This document shows, in pieces, positions 2,063-30,249 of a stretch of DNA of 32,552 nt. The stretch covers positions 1 through 32,552 of the IMG/VR virus record IMGVR_UViG_3300008261_000106. The stretch is one strand, 5' to 3'. How positions within the stretch are numbered: position 1 is the first letter of the stretch; every line of letters begins with the position of its first letter. The translations under genes were made by a program, and so were the position numbers. The DNA is from a virus. The notes below the pieces were generated by a model. The model searched no databases and was not told the origin of the DNA. It saw only the letters and a list, made by a program, of their open reading frames with translations.

Positions 2063-2091
2063 GGGGGGTCGAAAGACCCCCCGATTTTTTT
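2063..2091 (+). terminator. Rho-independent terminator after gp32
   Basis: GGGGGGTC (2063-2070) pairs perfectly with GACCCCCC (2075-2082) across a GAAA tetraloop, and a run of seven T follows at 2085-2091. It lies between the converging gp32 and tape measure genes. On the minus strand only three T follow the hairpin, so it should be much weaker in that direction. The T run touches the tape measure stop codon (2090-2092). Confidence 0.92.
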
Positions 2092-4222
2092 ATGCCAATG
2101 CCACGCGATTTAGATTTGTCAACATCTGTATGCTCTCGTCACGGACACGCATTGGAGCAAACATTCCTGTTGTATTTGTCGGAGCATTTATAACAGTATT
2201 CTTCTGCTCACCTTGAGACTTACCAGAAGTCTTTGCTGCCTGATCAATAGCATCGTTTGTCTTCATCATGTTCTGTGTTGGTGGACTTATTGGACCGCTA
2301 GGTGGAGCCATAGGAGATGGAGTTCCACGAAGATATGGTTTTCCATTTTCATCATATTCAACTGGTTCTAGAGGAGCAGTTCCTGGAATATCCTCGCCTG
2401 TTGGTGCAAGATCAGATGAAGTTTGACCTGTAGATGCCGCTGCTTTTTGAGCCTGTTCTGTCTGAGGAGCCATTCCCTCTGCTGCCTTCGCACCCTCTTC
2501 ATCAGGAACCGCGATGAGACTGCCAAGACCAGGAATTGCCGAGACTATATTGTAGATCTCTTCTCCTCCGATTGCACCACCAATTGCATTACCGATCTTT
2601 TCACCGACATAAGAACCCGCAACACCACCAGCAACAGCACCTAATGCGCCTGTTACCAATGCAGCAGGACCACCAGCAAGACCTAAAGCACCAGCAATCG
2701 CTCCACCACCCGCTGCGCCGATTGCTCCACCAATCATGCTTCCAAGTCCACCAGAGATTGTTTCTCCAATTCTCTTCTTTTTTTCTGCTGCTGATAGTGT
2801 TGGATCAGATTTGATATTTGATATATCCAATGCCATTAGACCAGCCTCTATTGCTGCTCCAATTACGGGAATCTTTATCAGTTTTCTGAGAACTTTTCCA
2901 CCACCGCTCTTGAATATCGACAAGACTTTTCCAAGACCGAGATTTGAAGCCTTTTCTCCTACCCATTTTCCAGCGGAAGAAAGTTTTCCCCATGCTCTAC
3001 TCAAAAAGCCTGGTTTAGTCGCTGCTTTTGCAGCATCTTTTCCTCCTGATGGAGATGGCACAGGAGATCCGCCTGTTGGTGTGGGCAATCCAGTTGCCGC
3101 ACCACCAAGTGCAATCGGAAGAAGTCTTCTTGCCCTGCCTAGTAGTCCTCTTCCCGCTCTGAGTATTGGTGAACGCTGTCCAACATTCTTGAAAAGACGA
3201 TCTCTCACTCCACGATAGGCTCTAGTTACGCCTATTTTTCCTCTTCTAAACATTCTGCCTATACGAGATCTTCTACCGAACATTCTTCCGATGAAGCCTC
3301 GTCTTCCACGCCTACCACCTCCACCAGAACCCATCATTAGCCAATCAAGCCAACTACCTCCACCATCACCCTCCTCCTGTCCTCCACGACCATCGTCGCG
3401 AGTGATGAGTGATTTTTGTCCTGCTTTTCCTCTTCTATCAGCCTCTGTTTGAGATTCTTCAAGCAAGGCATTCTGTTGCTCTTGTATTTCGTTATTTCCA
3501 CGCGCATATTCGATGAGTTTGTCTAATTTGAAATTAGTCTTTCTGTTCTCTTCGTAGATAGCGTCAAGTTTTTCGGCAACAGTTTCACCGATAGACTCGG
3601 CGCGTGATCCTTGATCCTGATTGTTTGGATCTGTTCCAAAATCAACTTGTGGTGGAGTCTTGTAAATCTCCGATCCTACAGCATCTGCGCCTTCAGTTAC
3701 AGGCTTTGCAGCCATTTCAGCATCACGCTTGCGTAGGATGTCTCCTGCTATTCTCTTCTGCTTGAAAGTTCGTGCAATGATTCTACCAAGAGGACCAGGA
3801 ATGGTTCTTTCGGCAAGATCTTCAGGTAGACGAGCGATTCCTCTTTTTACACGCTTACCAAATCCTTTTACTGCACTTCGGGTATTTTGCTTGAAAAGAT
3901 CGCCATAAGATTTTGCCGCAACTTCTTCGGCTTTTTGAATCTTTTCACCCTTTGCATCCTCTGCTTCGGCTTTTCGCTCTGCTCTACCAGATTCATCTCC
4001 ACTTTTCTTGCTTGTGCCAACGCCCTCTTTGAGAATCTTCTGCGTCTCTTGTGTATTCTTCTCAATCTTCTTGAGAGTTTCAAGAACAGGATCTTTCTTT
4101 ACAACTACAGGATCTGGAACACTAGTAGACTTATCTCCGTCAATATCGGGTAATGCCAACGAATCAGGCTCTGCTTGAGAAACCTTTCTTCTTCTGTTTG
4201 TTTTCCTTGCTTTTTTAGCCAT
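2090..4222 (-). CDS. 29: Tail tape measure protein (gp29-like)
   Basis: A 710-residue protein that I infer to be the tape measure, which sets tail tube length and leaves the tail during DNA ejection. Evidence is composition and position. The N-terminus is very basic (KKARKTNRRRKV), followed by charged, coiled-coil-like stretches to about residue 280. Next come a Gly/Arg-rich segment (about 290-360), a long Gly/Ala-rich hydrophobic zone (about 455-575) with GxxxG-like spacing typical of the membrane-interacting part of tape measures, and a Pro/Ser/Thr-rich C-terminus. It directly follows gp26 and its frameshift extension, and a tube-fold protein lies upstream of those. The ATG at 4222 (MAKKARKT), with GAGA 6 nt upstream, is preferred over an in-frame TTG at 4237. 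The start overlaps the extension frame by 8 nt. T4 gp29 is 590 aa; I see no specific family motif. Confidence 0.75.
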   Translation of the reverse strand: MAKKARKTNRRRKVSQAEPDSLALPDIDGDKSTSVPDPVVVKKDPVLETLKKIEKNTQETQKILKEGVGTSKKSGDESGRAERKAEAEDAKGEKIQKAEEVAAKSYGDLFKQNTRSAVKGFGKRVKRGIARLPEDLAERTIPGPLGRIIARTFKQKRIAGDILRKRDAEMAAKPVTEGADAVGSEIYKTPPQVDFGTDPNNQDQGSRAESIGETVAEKLDAIYEENRKTNFKLDKLIEYARGNNEIQEQQNALLEESQTEADRRGKAGQKSLITRDDGRGGQEEGDGGGSWLDWLMMGSGGGGRRGRRGFIGRMFGRRSRIGRMFRRGKIGVTRAYRGVRDRLFKNVGQRSPILRAGRGLLGRARRLLPIALGGAATGLPTPTGGSPVPSPSGGKDAAKAATKPGFLSRAWGKLSSAGKWVGEKASNLGLGKVLSIFKSGGGKVLRKLIKIPVIGAAIEAGLMALDISNIKSDPTLSAAEKKKRIGETISGGLGSMIGGAIGAAGGGAIAGALGLAGGPAALVTGALGAVAGGVAGSYVGEKIGNAIGGAIGGEEIYNIVSAIPGLGSLIAVPDEEGAKAAEGMAPQTEQAQKAAASTGQTSSDLAPTGEDIPGTAPLEPVEYDENGKPYLRGTPSPMAPPSGPISPPTQNMMKTNDAIDQAAKTSGKSQGEQKNTVINAPTNTTGMFAPMRVRDESIQMLTNLNRVALA

Positions 4223-4400
4223 TATTTCTCTTTGCAAGTTCCTCTTGCTTCTTAAGATCCTGTATGATCAAACCTACATGAATATCCTTTTCCCACGACA
4301 TCATTGATTCAATTTCGCTGAGATTGTAATTATGTCTCTTTATCATTTGGAAGATTGTCAAATAGTAGTCACTCAGCGTTCTTCCATAGAGACTCAGAAG
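4215..4400 (-). CDS. -1 frame extension of gp26 (tail assembly chaperone T-like)
   Basis: After a -1 shift at the slippery heptamer 4406-4400, gp26 would bypass its TGA (4396-4394) and continue for 61 codons, giving a fused protein of about 294 residues. The extension reads LLSLYGRTLSDYYLTIFQ, then MIKRHNYNLSEIESMMSWEKD, IHVGLIIQDLKKQEEL and AKRNNG, and stops at 4217-4215. The pattern of an aromatic helix, then H-x-x-x-S-E-I-E-x-M-x-x-W-E-x-x-I, then a charged helix resembles the T parts of phage tail assembly chaperones. These bind the tape measure while the G part recruits tube subunits. The only internal ATG (4346) has no ribosome-binding site, and coding-like sequence extends upstream of it to the slippery site, so frameshifting explains the region better than a separate gene. 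Confidence 0.75.
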   Translation of the reverse strand, partial: LLSLYGRTLSDYYLTIFQMIKRHNYNLSEIESMMSWEKDIHVGLIIQDLKKQEELAKRNNG

Positions 4401-5098
4401 AAAAAATCGGCGGATTCCGTTATCTCAATCTTGTTATCATTTCCACACTTCTTGCACTTGAACCCACCCTTGTAGTTCAGGTTCGGCATCTTGTCTATGA
4501 AATCAACCATCTTTTCAAATGTCTCGTTTCCAAGACTCTCAACAAAGTCCGATAGTTCCTGCTTGCTGTAGTCTTCAGCCTTCATTATATTGTCCTTGTC
4601 GTAGACATAATTTATACAAGAAATAACGAAGTCAAACATCTCCTGTGTTGTTGGAGCCTCAATAGCCATTTTGAGAGAAACATCCATATTTGGATACTTC
4701 ATCATTATTCCCATGCTATCGTTTATAGCAATCTTTGGTGGCAGAGATTTAGACTTATCTACTACTACTGCCTCAAAATCAACATAATGCTGATTCGTCT
4801 CTTTACATTCTGTGCAATAGAAGTTTGCCTTTGTCTTCTCACCAATTGATTTAGATCTTATCTTGAGGTAGATGTATTCAAGGTCAAATAGTGGAAGTTC
4901 ATCAACATCAATGCCACCCTGAACACAGTTGTTTATGGTTTGCTTGATGCTTTCATACATGTCTTTTTCTGTCTTGCTCTCAAGAGCCATCAACAGAAGT
5001 TTTTCCTCCTTTACCAAGAAAGGACGAAACTTGATCTTCTTTGATGAAGAAGGAACGATCATTTCATAATATGGAACTGCAATTGTCGGTAGACTCAT
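4394..5098 (-). CDS. 26: gp26-like baseplate hub / T4 baseplate family protein (PF12322 type)
   Basis: A 234-residue protein of the T4 gp26 family (T4 gp26 is 208 aa). The family's most recognisable block is present: FRPFLVKEEKLLLMALES at residues 24-41. LPLFDLEYIYLKIRSKSIGE follows at 68-87. Two CxxC pairs (Cys95/Cys98 and Cys215/Cys218) look like a split zinc ribbon. It ends in DFFF, encoded by the slippery T-run that allows -1 frameshifting into the next frame. T4 gp26 is described as a hub assembly factor. Here the position between a tube-fold protein and the tape measure, plus the frameshift, suggests a tail assembly chaperone role. AAGGTGA lies 8 nt before the ATG, and the upstream tube gene ends 12 nt away. 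Confidence 0.85.
   Translation of the reverse strand: MSLPTIAVPYYEMIVPSSSKKIKFRPFLVKEEKLLLMALESKTEKDMYESIKQTINNCVQGGIDVDELPLFDLEYIYLKIRSKSIGEKTKANFYCTECKETNQHYVDFEAVVVDKSKSLPPKIAINDSMGIMMKYPNMDVSLKMAIEAPTTQEMFDFVISCINYVYDKDNIMKAEDYSKQELSDFVESLGNETFEKMVDFIDKMPNLNYKGGFKCKKCGNDNKIEITESADFFF
4400..4406 (-). other. -1 ribosomal slippery heptamer T TTT TTC at the end of gp26
   Basis: In the gp26 frame the codons are GAT TTT TTC TTC TGA. Positions 4406-4400 therefore read T TTT TTC, a perfect X-XXY-YYZ heptamer at which both Phe tRNAs can re-pair after slipping back one base. The zero-frame stop is two codons on. I did not find a convincing downstream pseudoknot or an upstream Shine-Dalgarno-like stimulator by eye. 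Confidence 0.75.
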
Positions 5099-5110
5099 CT
5101 TAAATCACCT

Positions 5111-5734
5111 TTATGCTATAGTTGGAAGATCTGATACATCTCCCTGATATGGATTTCCTGAAAGTAGTGGTTCTTTTATCTTCTGCACATATGGAACATA
5201 ATTATCAATCGAATAGTCCTTGTAGGTAAATCCAACTGATATCGAATGACTTTCGTCATTCTTTAGACCAGAGAGATCAAGATCGGTTATGATCTTCGGA
5301 TAGCATTCATGCAATACTACTTTCATAACCTCATTGTCTGAACGATCTAGTTGTGTAATTGAAATCTCTTGAATGAAAGAGTTGTAGTAGTTTATAAATG
5401 CGTTGTTGTATGGAGCAACACGATTCATCCAGTCCTCAAAGACTAGTTTTTCAAACATGTCTTCTCCGACACGGAAAACCATTTGTATCTCGTTGTTATA
5501 GAGGAGTTCGTAGGGCATCTCCCGTTTTGGACCAGCAATCTTATAGGTTGCCGTAGAGACAGATCTACCAGGCATCGCCGTGCTTTCAATCGCCAGATTG
5601 AGTCTAAGATTCCATTCCATTGGAAAGTTAGAGAAAAATATCTCGTAACGAGCAGGAGATAGCCTACCATAACCAAACAAGTCAGCAAATGACTTGAATC
5701 CTTGAACATTGCTTGGTATTAGTGAGATTGCCAT
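5111..5734 (-). CDS. Tail tube-fold protein (gp19/gp54 type)
   Basis: A 207-residue protein resembling the T4-like tail tube family. Near the start, SPARYEIFFSNFP matches the R-x-x-x-F/I-E-x-x-x-x-x-x-P opening of tube proteins. It is followed by IESTAMPGRS, an F-E-x-W-M-N segment (FEDWMNRVAPYNNAF), an NYYNSF block, a CYPKI segment and a closing beta strand ISVGFTYKDYS. These are the landmarks of marine T4-like gp19 and of the related gp54 tube initiator. It lies next to gp26 and the tape measure rather than beside a sheath gene, so it may be gp54 or a second tube paralogue, with the main gp19 elsewhere in the genome. The start codon overlaps the stop of the upstream gene by one base (taATG). 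Confidence 0.75.
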   Translation of the reverse strand: MAISLIPSNVQGFKSFADLFGYGRLSPARYEIFFSNFPMEWNLRLNLAIESTAMPGRSVSTATYKIAGPKREMPYELLYNNEIQMVFRVGEDMFEKLVFEDWMNRVAPYNNAFINYYNSFIQEISITQLDRSDNEVMKVVLHECYPKIITDLDLSGLKNDESHSISVGFTYKDYSIDNYVPYVQKIKEPLLSGNPYQGDVSDLPTIA

Positions 5735-21257: not shown

Positions 21258-24200
21258 ATGGCATCATATAAGTCTTCTCTATTCAACATCAATCCTTATT
21301 TTGATGATTATGAGGAAGATAAGCGGTTTCTGCGTATGCTTTTCCGCCCTGGCTATGCCATTCAAGCGAGAGAACTTACACAACTACAGACCATTCTACA
21401 GAATCAAATTGAAAAATTTGGAAATCATATCTTTGAGGATGGTGCAAAGATCATCGGTGGAGACATAACCACCCAAAATGCAGAATATCTGCGTGTTCAG
21501 TTTTCGTCAAACATCACCAAGGATGATCTTCTTGGTTTCAATATCACCGCCCAATCAACAAACACTCTCTACCCAAGTCCTGTTGCTAGAGTCATTGATG
21601 TTCTTGAACCTATTCAGGAAACAGACAATTACCATATCCTCGTAATCAACCGCTATACAGGTGGAGAGTTTGCAGACGGAACCACATTTGCATCGACAAA
21701 TCCTGGCAAGGTAATCACAGGAACCGTTGCAAACAACGGATCATTCAGTTCTCGCGGCAAGGTTAAACTTGCTTCAGTTACTGAAGGTGTCTACTTCACC
21801 AACGGATTTTTTGTTAAGAATCTAGCCCAAACCGTTGCTCTCTACAACATGGTTGATGGTGTCAGAATCTTCCGAGATCCCACGGGTTCTGTTGTATTTT
21901 CAGTAAATGAAGATATCGTTACTGAACTTGAGGACTTCACCCTGAAGGATCCAGCAGCAGGATCTTACAACTACAATGCACCTGGCGCACACCGTTTCCG
22001 TCTTGACCTTGAACTAATCTTCAAGGAAGATGCCGATGAACTCACTACCGATACCATTGAACTCATGCGTATCGAAAACGGTGTTGTTACTAACAGATTA
22101 AAGTATACAGACTATTCTATAATTGAAGACACGCTTGCCCGAAGAACCTTTGACGAGTCGGGTGATTATGTCGTAAAGCCTTTTGACATTGATCTCTCAA
22201 TGGGAAGCACAGCAGAAGTAGTGGATATTTCACTTGGTGCTGGTAAGGCTTACATCACAGGTTATGAATTTGAGACTCAAAGCAAGCGAGGAATCACGAT
22301 AGATCCTGCTCGTTTCGATAAGCGTCTGTCAACAGACAAGACACTCGACACAGCCAAGATTGGTAATTATATTCGTGGAGATCTCGGACCTGTCTTTGCA
22401 AATATTATCGGAAGTGAAGATGATAATTTTGATATTTGCAGCGCACCACCACAGGTTCAGATCTGTGTTTTAAGAAATGGTGCAGAGAACATAGTTGCAA
22501 CAGCAAACGCAGCCAAGGTTTATTTTGATTATAGTTCTGGTCTTTCTACAAACGATGCTCGTCTTTACCTCATAAACATAGAATATACACAACTAGGTTA
22601 TGACCTAGCAAATAATCTGCTACAGGGCGATGTAATCTATGTTAAATATGTGAATTCTTCTGAAAATGCTGTTGCTAGTAGTGATCAAAAAGTTCTCATA
22701 AACATTGAAAACTATCTACCAACTACGGTAGATCCAAATGATTCTACTGTTCTTCGTTATTTACCTGGTCAGTTGATCCGTGAACCACAAGAGAATACTC
22801 TACTTTTCCCACTTGAAGACAACCATGTTGTGTCAAGTTACGAAAGACTTGAGTATGTCTATCCTCGTTCATTCTATTCAAGCAAGACTGAATCGGGTAA
22901 CAGTTCTACAGAGATAAGATTCACTCTGGATGAAGGTGAATTGTATGGTAATGATGGTCAAGTTTACGAAACAATAGGCTATTTGCTGTTTGGTTTGACT
23001 GGTGGTGGGACACCAAAACAAGATCTCTTCTCTTTTGGAGAATCTCCTCATGTTTTAACCAAAATTAGCGATGGTGAACTAGTTCTTACATACAACAGCG
23101 GTGGAAATACCACACTTCCGTTTGAGAGTTATAAACTCATTGCACCTGTTCGTGTTGCTGATACAAAGGCTGATGGTGCTTTTGATGCAGGAGGTGCTTT
23201 TGATGCAGGAAGTATTCGTCTCAAATATCTACGAAATGGTCAGATTCAGTTCGGCACAACTAGTGGTTTTGCTGATGTGAAGCGTGATGTTGTAAATGAC
23301 TACTATTACCTACAACTTCCTCATGCAGACATCATCGGCATAACCTCTGCAATCAACTCGACAACAGGAGAAGATATCTCATCAAAGTTCCTTCTCGACA
23401 ACGGTCAACGAGATCAAGTCTACCTTCGCGGACGCTTGATTTTCCGCGTAAATGCCGACGCAAATGCAACTCTTCCTGCAATAACTATAAACTACACATA
23501 TTTTGAACACACAGGAGAAGGACCATTCGTTCTTGATTCATACACTCATGATAACAGCGGAACGAACTATGGTCAAATACCCCTTTTCACTTCACCAACA
23601 ACAGGCAAGACGATTTCTCTAGCAAATTGCCTAGACTATCGTTATGTTGAAAATTACGATGGAACTGTGCAGTATTTCTCGGGAAGCAGAACTCCATTTA
23701 CCGAAGTTCAGCAGATCGAAGAGAGCCACAACTACTATCTTCCAAGAATTGACAAGATTGGTGTAAATCGCAATCTCATATCAAAGCCAAATCCATTTGT
23801 TGTTCTTCGTGGAGTTCCATCGCTCAAGCCTGTTGCTCCACCTGATCAACCTGATGTTGTAACTCTCTACACACTTCTTGTTCCTCCATATACACACAAT
23901 GCCGAAGACATTGAGGTCATTGAGTCAGACAACAAGCGTTTCACAATGGCTGACATTCGTCAGATTGAGAAGCGTGTTACAAATCTTGAGAATCTTACAA
24001 ACATCACCGCAGTTGAGGCTTCACTCGACGGTCTTGATCTAAAGGTAGACAGCAATACGAAGTTAGGATTCAAGACATCTCTGCTTGTTGATCCACTCAT
24101 TGGTCACTCGGTTGGAGATGTGTCTGATCCTGAACATGTCTGCTCTATTGATCTTGAGCGTGGAGAACTTCGTCCATCGTTTACAACGCAATTCCTTGCC

Positions 24201-26819
24201 TTTGAAGGTCGTCAAAGCCTTACAACGCAGGGAATTACAATGTCAACGGACGGCGTAATCCACTCGGCAAGCGATACAAACTTCCCCGATGGTGTGACCC
24301 TAGCATCACAATTGCTTGCAAGCAAATCTGTTGCCGTAAATCCATCAAACATGCCACTCTTTGTGGGAACCTACAAGGTTCGTCCATTCCTTGATCCATT
24401 CTTTGACACTTCAAACCGTCCATTCATTCGTTCAAATAAAGAGGGAGAGAATGACGGTTGGTATACCACGAATAGCAATGGTTTCGGTAGCCAATGGAAC
24501 TATTGGGAATCAATCTGGTCAGGAGTTCCTGAGTCAGATCAGTTCAACGAGGCTCTAAAGACAGATATATTGTTCAAGGCTAGAACAAAGTCTTTCAGAA
24601 ATGTTGTTCATCCAAAGTTTGAGAGCGTGAATGGAGTTTCGCGTTCAGGTAAGACTACAGATGAGCAGAAGAAGCGTTACAAGAGCAGCCAACGCTCGGT
24701 AACTGGAAAGGTAAAGAAGAAGATTGCTGGCAAGGTCATTGATGAATCAGTTGTTCCCTACATCAGACCACAAACAATCTATGTAACTGTCAAGAATCTA
24801 AAGCCAAATTCAGTCCATTGGGCTTTCCTTGATGGCGTTAGCGTTGATCGCTACATCATCGCTGAAAACAATCAGACAGGTCCATTCCTAACCTCTGCAA
24901 GTTCAACAACAGACAGTCAGGGAGAACTTTACAATCTCAGATTTGTAATTCCCGCAGAGACATTCAAGGTTGGAGAAAAGACACTCAGACTTATCGACAA
25001 TTCTTCGAATAATCTTGAAGATGCCACCTCTGTTGTTGATGTGAAGTTGTATTTCACAGGTGCGTTGGATACGAATGCATTTGGGTTCGCTTCGCTTCGT
25101 CCTCCTGTGATTCAGAGAAATTCGCTGACAACAGACAATGTTGTCGTGAATCCAATCAACCGTGCAAAGAACCTTGATACCTTGGCAAATGTTCAATGGA
25201 GCGATCCTTTCGCACAGAACTTTGTCATTGACGGCAACAAGTTCCAAGGCGGTGTTGCACTACAGAGCGTTGATCTGTATTTCGATACAAAGGATGATAG
25301 AATGCCTATCACCCTTGAGATCAGACCAACTGTAAATGGTCGCCCACATGGATCGTTCGTGCTTCCATTCTCACAGGTTGTGAAGAAGGCTTCTGATATC
25401 GTTGTGAACGACGGTTCGCCAACACAGAAGACTAGATTCACATTTGATTCTCCAGTATATCTTGAGCCTGGTGAATATTCAATTGTCCTCAAAACAAATT
25501 CATCGGCATACAAGGTCTATACCGCAACACTCGGTGAAAACGACATTGTTACAGGCAAGCGCATATCGACTCCTACCTATGCTGGCGCGATGTTCTTCCC
25601 ACAAAACAACGGTATATCAGAACCAGATCTGAACACAGATCTCATGTTCACGATCAATCGTTATCAGTTTGTGGAGCGTGAACGATCATCGGTTGTGATG
25701 CAAGTTTCTGATGTTGCTGAAGACTTTGCCTTCTCAACAATCCGTCTTGTGGCTCGTTCGATCAAGCCTATTGGAACAGGGGTCAAGTTCTATGTCTCGT
25801 TTGATAACAACAACGAGATTCCTGAAATTGAGGTTGTTCCAAATAAGAACATCGACATTCGTGCCTGTAGACGCATAACTGCTGGCGAGAGAAACATCAG
25901 AGTTCGTGCTGTATTTGACAATAATTCGGCAGGAACACTCTCTCCAATGCTTGATTATCAGGCTTTTGGTATTATCGCCGTCAGAAACAATATCGGTGCT
26001 GTCTCTGACTTTGAGGATGATACATCTGCTGATAACATCGTTCCTGCTCGCTATATCACAAGAAAAGTTACATTGCCAAGCGGACTTGAGTCTCAATACA
26101 TCAAGGTCATTGCTAATGTAAATCGTCCAAAGGGAACTGCGGTGAGTGCCTACTGTCGCTACTCGACAGCAGAAAATGATAATCGTTATGAATACATCAA
26201 ATACAACCGCATGGATGTTACAGAAAATCCATTCGGATTGTCATATTCACAGAATGAAGAAGACTTCCGTGAAGTTGCATGGGAATTCAAGGTTGCAAGC
26301 AATGTAATCAAGACATTCAACATCAAGTTGTTCATGACAACTGATAGCGAGTGTGGAGCCACAGTTCCTGTGATTCGTGATATCCGAGTTGTATCACTTG
26401 TCGATTCAACTGGTGGAGTTGTAACACTTCCTGTTGTAATCATCAACGATAATACAGAAACCATTATTATTCAAGGTCCACCAGGTCCACAAGGACCACC
26501 TGGTCCTGCTGGAGCGCGAGGAAGTGATGGAGCCGCGGGTCGTGATGGTCGTGATGGCGATCCTGGTGCAGATGGAACATGTCTAGGAGAATGTCCTGAG
26601 TGTCCATGTCCTGATCCTGCTGATTGTCCTTGTGGAACTGATGGTGGTAATGGGGGTTCGTGCGAGGGTGAACCAGCAGGAGGATGTCCTCCTGGAACTA
26701 TTTGGAATCAAACCAACTGTGCCTGTGAAACTTGCTGCGATGCCAATGGTAATCCATGCACAGATGCATTATGTCCATGCCTTCCATGCTCGGCTGCTTC
26801 TTTGGGAACAGATATCTAA
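21258..26819 (+). CDS. 1853-aa DUF4815-type tail/baseplate protein with collagen-like stalk and Cys-rich tail
   Basis: The largest gene here. The N-terminus FNINPYFDDYEEDKRFLRML, then FRPGYAIQARELTQLQTILQ with NQIEKFGNHIFEDGAKI, is the DUF4815 signature of large structural proteins in T4-like marine phages. Around residue 897 a conserved MADIRQIEKRVTNLENLT helix, probably a coiled-coil trimer element, is present. The rest is beta-rich with jelly-roll-like segments near 1360-1480 (FQGGVALQSVDLYFDT, then YLEPGEYSIVLKTNSS). Residues 1740-1772 are eleven perfect Gly-X-Y triplets, followed by 79 residues with 16 cysteines. The role is probably a peripheral baseplate or fibre-network protein; the collagen stalk and Cys-rich knob suggest a surface-exposed, trimeric tip. 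CGGAG precedes the ATG by 7 nt, and only 3 nt separate its stop from the next gene. Confidence 0.85.
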   Translation: MASYKSSLFNINPYFDDYEEDKRFLRMLFRPGYAIQARELTQLQTILQNQIEKFGNHIFEDGAKIIGGDITTQNAEYLRVQFSSNITKDDLLGFNITAQSTNTLYPSPVARVIDVLEPIQETDNYHILVINRYTGGEFADGTTFASTNPGKVITGTVANNGSFSSRGKVKLASVTEGVYFTNGFFVKNLAQTVALYNMVDGVRIFRDPTGSVVFSVNEDIVTELEDFTLKDPAAGSYNYNAPGAHRFRLDLELIFKEDADELTTDTIELMRIENGVVTNRLKYTDYSIIEDTLARRTFDESGDYVVKPFDIDLSMGSTAEVVDISLGAGKAYITGYEFETQSKRGITIDPARFDKRLSTDKTLDTAKIGNYIRGDLGPVFANIIGSEDDNFDICSAPPQVQICVLRNGAENIVATANAAKVYFDYSSGLSTNDARLYLINIEYTQLGYDLANNLLQGDVIYVKYVNSSENAVASSDQKVLINIENYLPTTVDPNDSTVLRYLPGQLIREPQENTLLFPLEDNHVVSSYERLEYVYPRSFYSSKTESGNSSTEIRFTLDEGELYGNDGQVYETIGYLLFGLTGGGTPKQDLFSFGESPHVLTKISDGELVLTYNSGGNTTLPFESYKLIAPVRVADTKADGAFDAGGAFDAGSIRLKYLRNGQIQFGTTSGFADVKRDVVNDYYYLQLPHADIIGITSAINSTTGEDISSKFLLDNGQRDQVYLRGRLIFRVNADANATLPAITINYTYFEHTGEGPFVLDSYTHDNSGTNYGQIPLFTSPTTGKTISLANCLDYRYVENYDGTVQYFSGSRTPFTEVQQIEESHNYYLPRIDKIGVNRNLISKPNPFVVLRGVPSLKPVAPPDQPDVVTLYTLLVPPYTHNAEDIEVIESDNKRFTMADIRQIEKRVTNLENLTNITAVEASLDGLDLKVDSNTKLGFKTSLLVDPLIGHSVGDVSDPEHVCSIDLERGELRPSFTTQFLAFEGRQSLTTQGITMSTDGVIHSASDTNFPDGVTLASQLLASKSVAVNPSNMPLFVGTYKVRPFLDPFFDTSNRPFIRSNKEGENDGWYTTNSNGFGSQWNYWESIWSGVPESDQFNEALKTDILFKARTKSFRNVVHPKFESVNGVSRSGKTTDEQKKRYKSSQRSVTGKVKKKIAGKVIDESVVPYIRPQTIYVTVKNLKPNSVHWAFLDGVSVDRYIIAENNQTGPFLTSASSTTDSQGELYNLRFVIPAETFKVGEKTLRLIDNSSNNLEDATSVVDVKLYFTGALDTNAFGFASLRPPVIQRNSLTTDNVVVNPINRAKNLDTLANVQWSDPFAQNFVIDGNKFQGGVALQSVDLYFDTKDDRMPITLEIRPTVNGRPHGSFVLPFSQVVKKASDIVVNDGSPTQKTRFTFDSPVYLEPGEYSIVLKTNSSAYKVYTATLGENDIVTGKRISTPTYAGAMFFPQNNGISEPDLNTDLMFTINRYQFVERERSSVVMQVSDVAEDFAFSTIRLVARSIKPIGTGVKFYVSFDNNNEIPEIEVVPNKNIDIRACRRITAGERNIRVRAVFDNNSAGTLSPMLDYQAFGIIAVRNNIGAVSDFEDDTSADNIVPARYITRKVTLPSGLESQYIKVIANVNRPKGTAVSAYCRYSTAENDNRYEYIKYNRMDVTENPFGLSYSQNEEDFREVAWEFKVASNVIKTFNIKLFMTTDSECGATVPVIRDIRVVSLVDSTGGVVTLPVVIINDNTETIIIQGPPGPQGPPGPAGARGSDGAAGRDGRDGDPGADGTCLGECPECPCPDPADCPCGTDGGNGGSCEGEPAGGCPPGTIWNQTNCACETCCDANGNPCTDALCPCLPCSAASLGTDI
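26475..26573 (+). repeat. Collagen-like Gly-X-Y coding repeat (11 triplets)
   Basis: Eleven consecutive Gly-X-Y triplets in the 1853-aa protein: first Pro-rich (GPPGPQGPPGPAG), then Arg/Asp-rich (GARGSDGAAGRDGRDGDPG). The paired opposite charges are what bacterial and phage collagens use for triple-helix stability without hydroxyproline. A Cys-rich domain follows immediately. Confidence 0.9.
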
Positions 26820-27020: not shown

Positions 27021-29501
27021 ATGCCAACAGGACCAAGTAGCAACCAGTATATCATACCTGACATTCTCTTGTCTGACACTTTCAATGAGTGGCTGACTGT
27101 AACTAACACAGATATCATTGAGAAACTTAACTTTCTCAAGGTGTATACTGCTACAGGCACAGGTGGTATAACCGTTGATACCCTCACGAATGGTGAGGCA
27201 ATGATTGGTCTTGATGAGATCATTCCTGGACCACACACATTTACAGGCAATATTACCTTTAATGGAACTGTGACCACGGTCAATTCTACCGAAATGACCA
27301 TTGATGACTATAATCTTGTTCTTGGTCACACAGCGGGTGGCTCAGGTGGTTCTGACGCAGAGATCAATGCTGCGGGTGGCGGTGGTATAATCCTTAAGGG
27401 TCTTACCACCGACAAAGAATTCCTATGGAAAACTGGTCCTGAAGCATGGCATTCAAGCGAAAGCCTCAGACTAGCCGCAGGAAAGCGTTTCCTTTCGGGT
27501 GATGATACATTCCGCCTACACACAACCACAGGTGGATTGCATGTAAAGGTCACGGGTGCAGGAACAACCTATGACACTCTATTTTACATTGGAACTAGTG
27601 CAGGAGCGACTGCCGAAGTTGCTCGTATCAGACAAGATACAACTGTAGAGATCTACAACGGTGTTAACCGTAAGCGTTTCTACCAATCAGGAGCGGGATA
27701 CACATTTGGACATGTAATTCGTCCAATAGCGGGTGGATTTACACTCGCAAAGGCAGATAGTGCAGAAAACGCTGAAGCCATTGGTATTATCTGCGGTGTC
27801 AACGGAGACACTTATGATGTAATGTTCCAAGGCGAAATCGGCGGAGATTTTGCTACAGTTCTTGGCAGCACACTATCAGCAGGAAATGTATACTTCCTTT
27901 CAGCAACAACTGCGGGCTTCTTGAGTGCTTCTTATCCAGCAGCAACTCCAAATAATATCACAAAGGCAATGATGCTTGGATTTGGTCCAACTCAAGGTTA
28001 TGTTCTTCATTATGTCGGAGTTGCAGCCACAGGCGGAATTGATGTTGATCTAGGAACATCTTCAAGCGAAGGCGTTGAAACTATCATTCAGGGTAGTGGT
28101 TTTGCAATCGGAGATGTAGTCCGAGTTAGTGATGATGGTTCTGGTTACGAATTTGCCTCTGCTAATAGTCCAGAAAATGCTGAAGCAATTGGTGTAATCA
28201 CAGGAGTAATAAACTCCACAACATTCCGTCTGAAGACATTCGGTATCAATCTATTCAATACTGGTGTTACTCTTGATGAGGGATATCAGAGTGGCATCTC
28301 TAGCGGTCAAGTCTATTTCTTATCAACAGATTCTGGTAAGATGACGCTCAACCAACCAACAAGTGCTGGTAGTGTTATCAAGCCAATGATGGTTGGACTA
28401 CCAAGCAATAAGGCACTAATTCTCAGTAGAAATGCTATGATTCCTGCCGATAGTGGAGGTGGAGGCGGTCCAACCGAACCAACAAGTCCTGTGACAGAGG
28501 GACTTGTTGGCAAGACATTCCTACCTGTTTTTGATGGTTCAGATAATGATAGAGTTTTCTATGCTGGTGGTAATCCTCTAGAAGATGGAAATGCAATTTT
28601 CAACTCTTCGAATGATACAGAAACCGCAGATGCGAATCAAAATCTACGAGGTTACTATGTCTATCATCTAAGACTGAATGATATTGTTGACACAATTCCT
28701 GCAAATGCAACCCATGTTGTTCTACAAGGAGTTGGTCAGGCAAATTATAGTGCCACGACATCATACAGCAGAGTGATTGTGGGACCATATAGCGGAGATG
28801 TTGGACTTACAAATTCATACGATCCAGCAAATCTCACTGCAATTCCTACAAAGTATACTGACATGGAAAAGTATAGCCGTTTCTTCAGCGAGAAGTATAA
28901 CGGCGACTTTATCCACAATCAGTTCCCAACAAGCGGAGCATCGACATTCTCGGAGCATGTAGTCTGTAGAATTGGAAGACAAACTGTTGGTAGCGATACA
29001 TTTAACGCCATCACGATGTTGATGCGAACCAAGGGTGTGAATTCCATCAATCACTCAATAAGAGTAGTTGGTTTCTATTGCGAAGCAAATCTGTCGGGTG
29101 ATATTCCCAGCACACCAAAGAATAAAGTTTCAAATCCATTCTTTGTCAAGAGAGAACATGATGAGTTTCAGAAACTAGGAAATTCCTCATATAACAATAT
29201 AGTTGGTGGAACTGGTATAAAGAACAATGTTTCTGCCGATGGTTGGACAATCTGTGCGGTTGGCGGTGTTACATCAAACAATGTAACTACAACATTCCGA
29301 GGAAGAACATCCACACAACATCACTCAGATGCAATTCAGCGGAAATCCAATATCTCCAACAGATGCAGTTGCTCTGTTTTCAAATTCCAATGTAAGAGTT
29401 CGCTCCATTCCAGATGGAAAGGCAACCCTGTCATTCATCGCGAGAGTAAACACAGGAACTCAAAGAATTCAGGCTGGTTTCTCCAGAAATTATTACAATA
29501 G
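27021..29501 (+). CDS. Tail fibre protein, N-terminal part (frame breaks near 29300)
   Basis: An 826-codon frame whose first 760 or so residues read as a phage tail fibre. The N-terminus IPDILLSDTFNEWLTVTN is a typical attachment region of T4-like marine fibres. It is followed by FTGNITFNGTVTTVNSTE with MTIDDYNLVLG, a motif common in such fibres. Two related modules at residues about 230-336 and 360-471 share ENAEAIG(I/V), VYFLS and K(A/P)MM. From about residue 705 a jelly-roll, carbohydrate-binding-like domain starts (NPFFVKREHDEF, DGWTICAVGG). After about residue 760 (near 29300) the translation becomes Ser/His/Lys-rich with no fibre character, while the next frame takes over, so the last 66 codons or so are probably not real coding. 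The intact product would span 27021-30249, about 1075 residues. Confidence 0.85.
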   Translation: MPTGPSSNQYIIPDILLSDTFNEWLTVTNTDIIEKLNFLKVYTATGTGGITVDTLTNGEAMIGLDEIIPGPHTFTGNITFNGTVTTVNSTEMTIDDYNLVLGHTAGGSGGSDAEINAAGGGGIILKGLTTDKEFLWKTGPEAWHSSESLRLAAGKRFLSGDDTFRLHTTTGGLHVKVTGAGTTYDTLFYIGTSAGATAEVARIRQDTTVEIYNGVNRKRFYQSGAGYTFGHVIRPIAGGFTLAKADSAENAEAIGIICGVNGDTYDVMFQGEIGGDFATVLGSTLSAGNVYFLSATTAGFLSASYPAATPNNITKAMMLGFGPTQGYVLHYVGVAATGGIDVDLGTSSSEGVETIIQGSGFAIGDVVRVSDDGSGYEFASANSPENAEAIGVITGVINSTTFRLKTFGINLFNTGVTLDEGYQSGISSGQVYFLSTDSGKMTLNQPTSAGSVIKPMMVGLPSNKALILSRNAMIPADSGGGGGPTEPTSPVTEGLVGKTFLPVFDGSDNDRVFYAGGNPLEDGNAIFNSSNDTETADANQNLRGYYVYHLRLNDIVDTIPANATHVVLQGVGQANYSATTSYSRVIVGPYSGDVGLTNSYDPANLTAIPTKYTDMEKYSRFFSEKYNGDFIHNQFPTSGASTFSEHVVCRIGRQTVGSDTFNAITMLMRTKGVNSINHSIRVVGFYCEANLSGDIPSTPKNKVSNPFFVKREHDEFQKLGNSSYNNIVGGTGIKNNVSADGWTICAVGGVTSNNVTTTFRGRTSTQHHSDAIQRKSNISNRCSCSVFKFQCKSSLHSRWKGNPVIHRESKHRNSKNSGWFLQKLLQ
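27708..28433 (+). repeat. Two fibre modules of the NAEAIG type
   Basis: Protein-level repeats at 27708-28026 and 28098-28433. Both show the order: residue feed, A-x-x-x-x-E-N-A-E-A-I-G, a beta strand, L-S/I-S-x-G-x-V-Y-F-L-S, then K-x-M-M and a closing strand. The DNA has diverged. A third copy opens the next gene (30337-30702). Confidence 0.7.
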
Positions 29502-30249
29502 CACCATTTCCAATGAAACTGGTATACCAGATTCTTCCTATGCTCATATCGGAACTGCTACATTAACCACGCAATGGAAGCGTTACTTCTTTACATTTGA
29601 TCTACCAGCACTAGCCGATGGTGGACAGTTCAGCACATCAAATCTGCACTTTATACTCGGCCATAAGAGTTATACACCACCAGGAAACGCATGGTTGAAA
29701 AACTTCAATAGCATGGTGAATAATTCGTTGGCTAACTACTGGCCAGCATCAGGAACACAGATTGAATTTGCCCATGTTCAACTTGAAATGGGAGCAATTG
29801 GAACACCGATGGAAGTTATAAGTGATGCTATTTCAAATCTTGAAACAGATGCAATCGTAGCAATGGGTGAGGGAGAGCATACAGTAATTGACAATGGTAG
29901 TAGTGGATTGGGATATACTGCTTTTAGAACAAAGATACAAAATTGCATCACCAATGGTTTTGCTGGTGTCAAGAGAAGACTATCATTTAAGTCAAAACGA
30001 GGACTGAATCCCACAGATCCACCTGTATCTGGCAGAGCAAATCTGGTAACAGGAAATGAGTCACCAAAATTTGTAGGTGAAAGAACTTCTAATGCTGGCC
30101 CACAAACTGCATATGGATTCTACACAAAAGTAAGTATAGATCAACAGTTTACTTCAGGTGTTAATAAGGGTGGTTACTCGTTCTATTATCTTGTTGATGC
30201 AACCGTCTATCCATTCCCAACAGATTCAAATGGAAATCTCATTTTCTGA
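29329..30249 (+). CDS. Tail fibre, C-terminal part in the +1 frame
   Basis: This frame is open from 29287; its first ATG is at 29329, with no ribosome-binding site. It continues the carbohydrate-binding-like beta sandwich begun in the upstream frame: EHPHNITQMQFSG, then KATLSFIARVNTGTQRIQAG, LTTQWKRYFFTFDLP and GTQIEFAHVQLEMGAIGTPM, the usual last strands of such domains. About 140 further residues follow to a stop at 30247. The two frames together make one sensible protein, so this is best read as one fibre gene with a single frame change (one extra base, or a +1 shift, between 29287 and about 29340). Whether this is a real mutation, programmed shifting or a sequencing error cannot be decided from the sequence; no homopolymer longer than two bases is present at the point where the frames meet. 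Confidence 0.75.
   Translation: MQFSGNPISPTDAVALFSNSNVRVRSIPDGKATLSFIARVNTGTQRIQAGFSRNYYNSTISNETGIPDSSYAHIGTATLTTQWKRYFFTFDLPALADGGQFSTSNLHFILGHKSYTPPGNAWLKNFNSMVNNSLANYWPASGTQIEFAHVQLEMGAIGTPMEVISDAISNLETDAIVAMGEGEHTVIDNGSSGLGYTAFRTKIQNCITNGFAGVKRRLSFKSKRGLNPTDPPVSGRANLVTGNESPKFVGERTSNAGPQTAYGFYTKVSIDQQFTSGVNKGGYSFYYLVDATVYPFPTDSNGNLIF

Follow-up and report, generated by a model that had tools for sequence, protein, structure and literature searches.

Does the gp26 gene of this marine-type T4-like phage, which lies just ahead of a probable tape measure gene, encode one tail protein or two that share most of their length? The earlier note proposed two, on the grounds of a programmed -1 frameshift site at the gene's end, and the present analysis comes to the same answer. 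In the window, i.e., the whole stretch of 32,552 nt that was analysed, the entire chaperone locus lies on the minus strand, a fact left unstated in that note. Our preferred reading, to which we give a probability of about 0.93, is that gp26 would be a short tail assembly chaperone (TAC-N, comparable to lambda gpG) and that minority -1 slippage at T TTT TTC would yield a 294-residue long form, TAC-NC, carrying a gp51 (TAC-C) domain.

The gp26 Locus and Its Neighbours

The gp26 gene (4394..5098, minus strand) encodes 234 residues ending in ...ESADFFF, and its final codons are GAT TTT TTC TTC TGA. The heptamer TTTTTTC occupies 4406..4400 on the minus strand and is followed by a single codon (TTC) and then TGA. 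Read from 4400, the -1 frame gives LLSLYGRTLSDYYLTIFQMIKRHNYNLSEIESMMSWEKDIHVGLIIQDLKKQEELAKRNNG, which spans 61 codons (4218..4400, minus strand) and stops at a TAA at 4217-4215; as the ATG of the next gene is at 4222, this stop falls inside the start of that gene and the extension overlaps it by 8 nt. The fusion would thus comprise 233 + 61 = 294 residues. The earlier note had given the same heptamer, frame length, 8-nt overlap and fusion length, and all of these figures are correct. The length of the open -1 frame was rejected as evidence, since overlapping phage genes often leave such frames after a stop. The case for frameshifting beyond chance rests on a conserved site, the lack of a start codon and the evolution of codons in the extension.

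Upstream, at 5111..5734 on the minus strand, lies a gene for a tail tube-like protein (phrog_3629, E 1.4e-24). Directly 3' of the chaperone locus is a gene for 710 residues (2090..4222, minus strand), which by its position probably encodes the tape measure protein. Its product weakly matches phrog_34863 and phrog_1047, both of which are also matched by the annotated tape measure protein of Cr30, and no relative was found by tblastn of the phage collection. A second PF12322 copy, such as would form a gene pair in the style of T4, is absent from the window, which is a 32.5-kb fragment.

Identity and Fold of the Two Parts

The zero-frame product matches Pfam PF12322 (T4_baseplate) with E 1.7e-58 and 198 bits, far above the curated cut-off of 24.5, and phrog_150 with E 4.9e-63. 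Residues 2-61 of the extension match phrog_634 ("baseplate hub assembly catalyst", i.e., gp51) with E 2.6e-18, which places the extension in the gp51 family. The two parts are found together in T4 gp51, which aligns end to end with the fusion of gp26 and extension, with 22% identity across 260 columns (E 5e-7). PF12322 is matched by both T4 gp26 and T4 gp51, and phrog_634 is additionally matched by T4 gp51 within one chain. From these matches and the alignment it follows that T4 gp51 consists of a paralogue of gp26 with the extension domain joined to it in frame; judged by sequence comparison, it represents the fusion proposed here as it occurs naturally within one reading frame. In T4, genes 26 and 51 lie on different strands. 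Among T4-type gp51 loci, one (L104) has a frame that stops after 120 residues, possibly owing to a split gene or an error, and a database entry of nearly the same length is the "Baseplate protein" of Klebsiella phage KPV15.

The AlphaFold2 model of gp26 (pLDDT 88) was compared with known structures using VIA-align, and the top three matches were RBSTP2171 (3fgx, Z 7.8), HK97 gp13 (2ob9, Z 7.7) and YqbN of B. subtilis (3klu, Z 7.0), all of which are phage tail assembly chaperones (PMC9603447). The next rows were a V. cholerae satellite protein at Z 5.1 and then unrelated chains at 3.5 or below. Values of Z below 8 are modest by VIA-align's own note, yet the placing of three known chaperones at the top is specific, and the model supports a chaperone fold for the short form. 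The resemblance concerns residues 1-94 of gp26; the three proteins differ from it in sequence (8-11% identity), and gp26 has an extra, zinc-ribbon-like C-terminal part. In the model of a T4-like gp51 (L096, pLDDT 87.5), the region corresponding to the extension is predicted to form four helices; neither Foldseek of this model against the PDB nor a PDB profile search by sequence gave a meaningful match.

Conservation of the Slippery Site

With the gp26 profile, 80 metagenomic loci were collected from IMG/VR, and in 79 of them gp26 ends with an in-frame TTTTTT(C/T/A) from which the -1 frame enters the gp51 domain. The lone exception, L095, reads TCG TTT TTT TAA, i.e., G TTT TTT, and lacks T6. 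In the closest relatives of the window (L001-L003), GATTTTTTCTTCTGA is identical. The same arrangement is present in S-CREM1, S-PM2, Mosig, Melnitz-3, Cr30, Aeh1, D491s, YB07 and RHph_N34; the hosts of phages that share it are cyanobacteria, Pelagibacter, Methylophilales, Caulobacter, Aeromonas, Vibrio, Stenotrophomonas and Rhizobium. With these phages counted in, the site reads TTTTTT(C/T/A/G). The records of these nine phages annotate no joined gp26-gp51 product; gp51 is given as a separate short CDS in each, except in Aeh1, where it is missing.

The codon context itself goes beyond chance. Of 95 loci, 90 have T|TTT|TTY where gp26 has its terminal Phe-Phe, as against 21 of 303 other Phe-Phe pairs (7%) in the same loci; the associated p-value of 1.9e-97 is nominal, the loci being related. 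The conservation of both heptamer and -1 frame that the earlier note had asked about thus extends across very diverged relatives. Relatives that keep gp26 and have neither the slippery site nor the -1 frame are confined to the T4 group, in which the long form is a separate gene.

Some loci depart from the pattern in other ways. In Ackermannviridae and Ackermann-like loci (L010, L014 and L106-L109; VAP7, S115, Bue1, 2050H1, RCIP0012 and D531), the -1 extension is kept (FHLIFEIDL...), and NTTTTC or GTTTTTC stands in place of an X XXY YYZ heptamer; among them, an ATG at the gp26 stop occurs in VAP7 and D531 only. In Rhizobium phage RHph_I1_18 (L110), gp26 nears its end with GAT TTT TTA AAC, in which the canonical T TTT TTA and T TTA AAC overlap, and about a dozen frame-0 codons lie beyond the slippery site.

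Selection on the Extension and Alternative Readings

Between the window and L003, pN/pS in the extension is 0.09 in the -1 frame, the two alternative frames giving 0.79 and 2.79, and in none of the 20 pairs compared does the -1 frame value reach 0.4. By this codon-level measure, the extension is under purifying selection as a protein in the -1 frame.

Such a protein might be made from a start of its own, either an ATG within the extension or one used by termination-reinitiation where gp26 stops, as the annotation of gp51 as a separate CDS in database records implies. We regard this as very unlikely. In the extension, an in-frame ATG is typically not reached until codon 18-19, past a conserved block, and a start about 18 codons in would drop a block under purifying selection (LLSLYGRTLSDYYLTIFQ in the window). 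In the window, 4346 is the sole in-frame ATG ahead of the conserved NLSEIE block, and the earlier note was right that it has no ribosome-binding site: no purine-rich, SD-like element precedes it. An independent gene from this ATG was rejected on both counts. Reinitiation could contribute in the 13 of 89 loci (about 15%) where an ATG follows the site by no more than five codons, in some as TGATG or TAATG, but the window and most relatives have no ATG near the gp26 stop, and a separate gene would leave the conserved heptamer unexplained.

The run of T itself invites two further readings, both still less probable. Slippage might be transcriptional rather than ribosomal, given that a run of 6-9 T is present in all loci; however, the run is mostly 6 or 7, which is short for polymerase slippage, it is kept in X XXY YYZ phase to the codons, and an SD-like element lies at a ribosomal distance from it. 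Least probable of all is a sequencing or assembly error that has split a single in-frame gp26-gp51 gene: homopolymers are prone to errors and T4 gp51 is indeed an in-frame fusion, but 79 of the 80 metagenome contigs, which are independent of one another, have the site, as do named isolate genomes, and this recurrence refutes an error.

Programmed -1 frameshifting is thus the preferred reading, and the proposal that gp26 is the G-like form and the fusion the GT-like form is supported by the conservation of the site, selection in the -1 frame, homology of the extension to gp51, the fused T4 gp51 and the chaperone fold. We infer that slippage would occur, that its rate would be such as to make the fusion the minor product, and that both products would act as chaperones. 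Most ribosomes would terminate at the gp26 stop and give the major TAC-N, while a minority would slip by -1 at T TTT TTC and read 61 more codons to give the minor TAC-NC. If lambda gpG/gpGT is taken as the model, the tape measure protein encoded by the next gene would be covered by numerous TAC-N molecules, and a small number of TAC-NC molecules would recruit tail tube subunits via the C-terminal domain.

Candidate Stimulatory Elements

How often slippage occurs is probably modulated by a 5' SD-like element and by a 3' stem or pseudoknot. Family-wide, the sequences upstream of the heptamer pair more strongly with the anti-SD than their synonymous resamples do (z -8.9). The SD-like cores begin 12-15 nt 5' of the heptamer, and for seven control positions taken from these genes the anti-SD pairing has the opposite sign. 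The window's own SD-like element, ACGGAATCC, is weak.

On the 3' side of the window's heptamer, a putative stem (4334..4393, minus strand) would consist of an outer helix, GUCUCU (4393-4388) with AGAGAC (4339-4334), which begins 6 nt past the heptamer, and an inner helix, UGGAAGA (4386-4380) with UCUUCCA (4354-4348). Its loop would contribute CGCUGAG (4378-4372) to a putative second stem with CUCAGCG (4322-4316), giving an H-type pseudoknot (stem 2, 4316..4378, minus strand). The pairs of the 3' stem are all kept in L001-L003, with one change of A-U to G-U, and stem 2 is invariant there. Against synonymous-codon resampling, the stacking energy of the pseudoknot has p 0.003 in the window and p 0.0025 in L003. 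Of 10 variable columns, one is paired and its pair is retained (p 0.006; p 0.07 at third codon positions only). The nested minimum-energy fold of L003 is unlike that of the window, and the inner helix is absent from it. No compensatory changes in the 3' structure were found among the three distinct sequences that bear on it, and for this reason the pseudoknot is put forward as a candidate in the window's clade.

The pseudoknot is not supported as a family-wide feature. The signal of a family-wide 3' stem, first seen with pooled codon usage, shrinks under locus-specific usage to a z of -3.4, with controls of up to -2.7. Strong individual 3' stems are nevertheless in excess (23% of loci vs. 3-9%). 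One way of combining these results, which we offer tentatively and at slightly less than even odds, is that the gp26-gp51 signal in marine T4-like phages may be composite, with an SD-like element maintained through synonymous codon choice, the T6 heptamer and a lineage-specific 3' element; the window's clade would then pair a weak SD-like element with an H-type pseudoknot. If so, lineages would set the ratio of TAC-N to TAC-NC with different stimulators.

Relation to Known Systems

Frameshifting is reportedly conserved in several T4-like groups, and T4 itself is said to use genes 26 and 51 for the two forms. In T4-like phages, the tail assembly chaperones were identified by Vladimirov, Gautam and Davidson (Virology, 2022). 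They belong to the same protein family as gp26 of the window and likewise comprise TAC-N and TAC-NC, the long form reportedly being made by frameshifting in several groups; the phage of the window differs in being an uncultivated IMG/VR record. PRFect cites the same study for T4-like phages in which a short gene accompanies a long fusion gene. In PMC12846349 it is cited for poly-T signals in the TAC-N genes of T4-like phages. Whether such a site had been described for the gp26 family, which the earlier note could not say, can thus be answered with yes at the family level (Vladimirov et al., 2022). For T4-like phages the principle is already in the literature, and what is added here is breadth, statistics and candidate stimulatory signals.

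These observations also bear on other accounts. G-T frameshifting has been described as conserved in long-tailed phages "except T4" (Atkins et al., 2016; PMC5009743). Cyanophage gp51 was found to be about 20% of the length of T4 gp51, and gp51 to be missing in Aeh1 (Sullivan et al., 2010). Both of the latter findings are explained if the extension sits in the -1 frame, which is where Aeh1 carries it.

T4 gp26 and gp51 are like the proteins of the window in that both match PF12322 and gp51 has the extension domain, but the two forms in T4 are separate genes on opposite strands and are made without frameshifting. The slippery sequence of lambda gpG/gpGT differs from TTTTTTC. In lambda, as proposed for the window, ribosomes shift by -1 shortly before the short chaperone gene ends, so that a short and a long form are made; the lambda site lies just upstream of the tape measure gene (PMC5009743), whereas the next gene of the window is only a probable one. 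The chaperone locus of Vandenendeviridae and Andersonviridae has TAC-N and TAC-NC with a -1 frameshift at poly-T, but these are other phage families and the motif is GTTTTT rather than TTTTTTC (PMC12846349). On the preferred reading, the two-form chaperone strategy of the lambda type would be near-universal among the marine T4-like phages sampled.

Other Features of the Window

Two further features were observed on the plus strand of the window. At 27021-30249, a tail-fibre-like open reading frame (27021-29501) ends in seemingly out-of-frame sequence and the frame at 29329-30249 continues it, so that the junction may reflect a frameshift, an error or a programmed site. At 21258-26819, a structural protein of 1853 residues has a terminal collagen-like repeat (GPPGPQGPPGPAGARGSDG...), which is followed by a Cys-rich tail.
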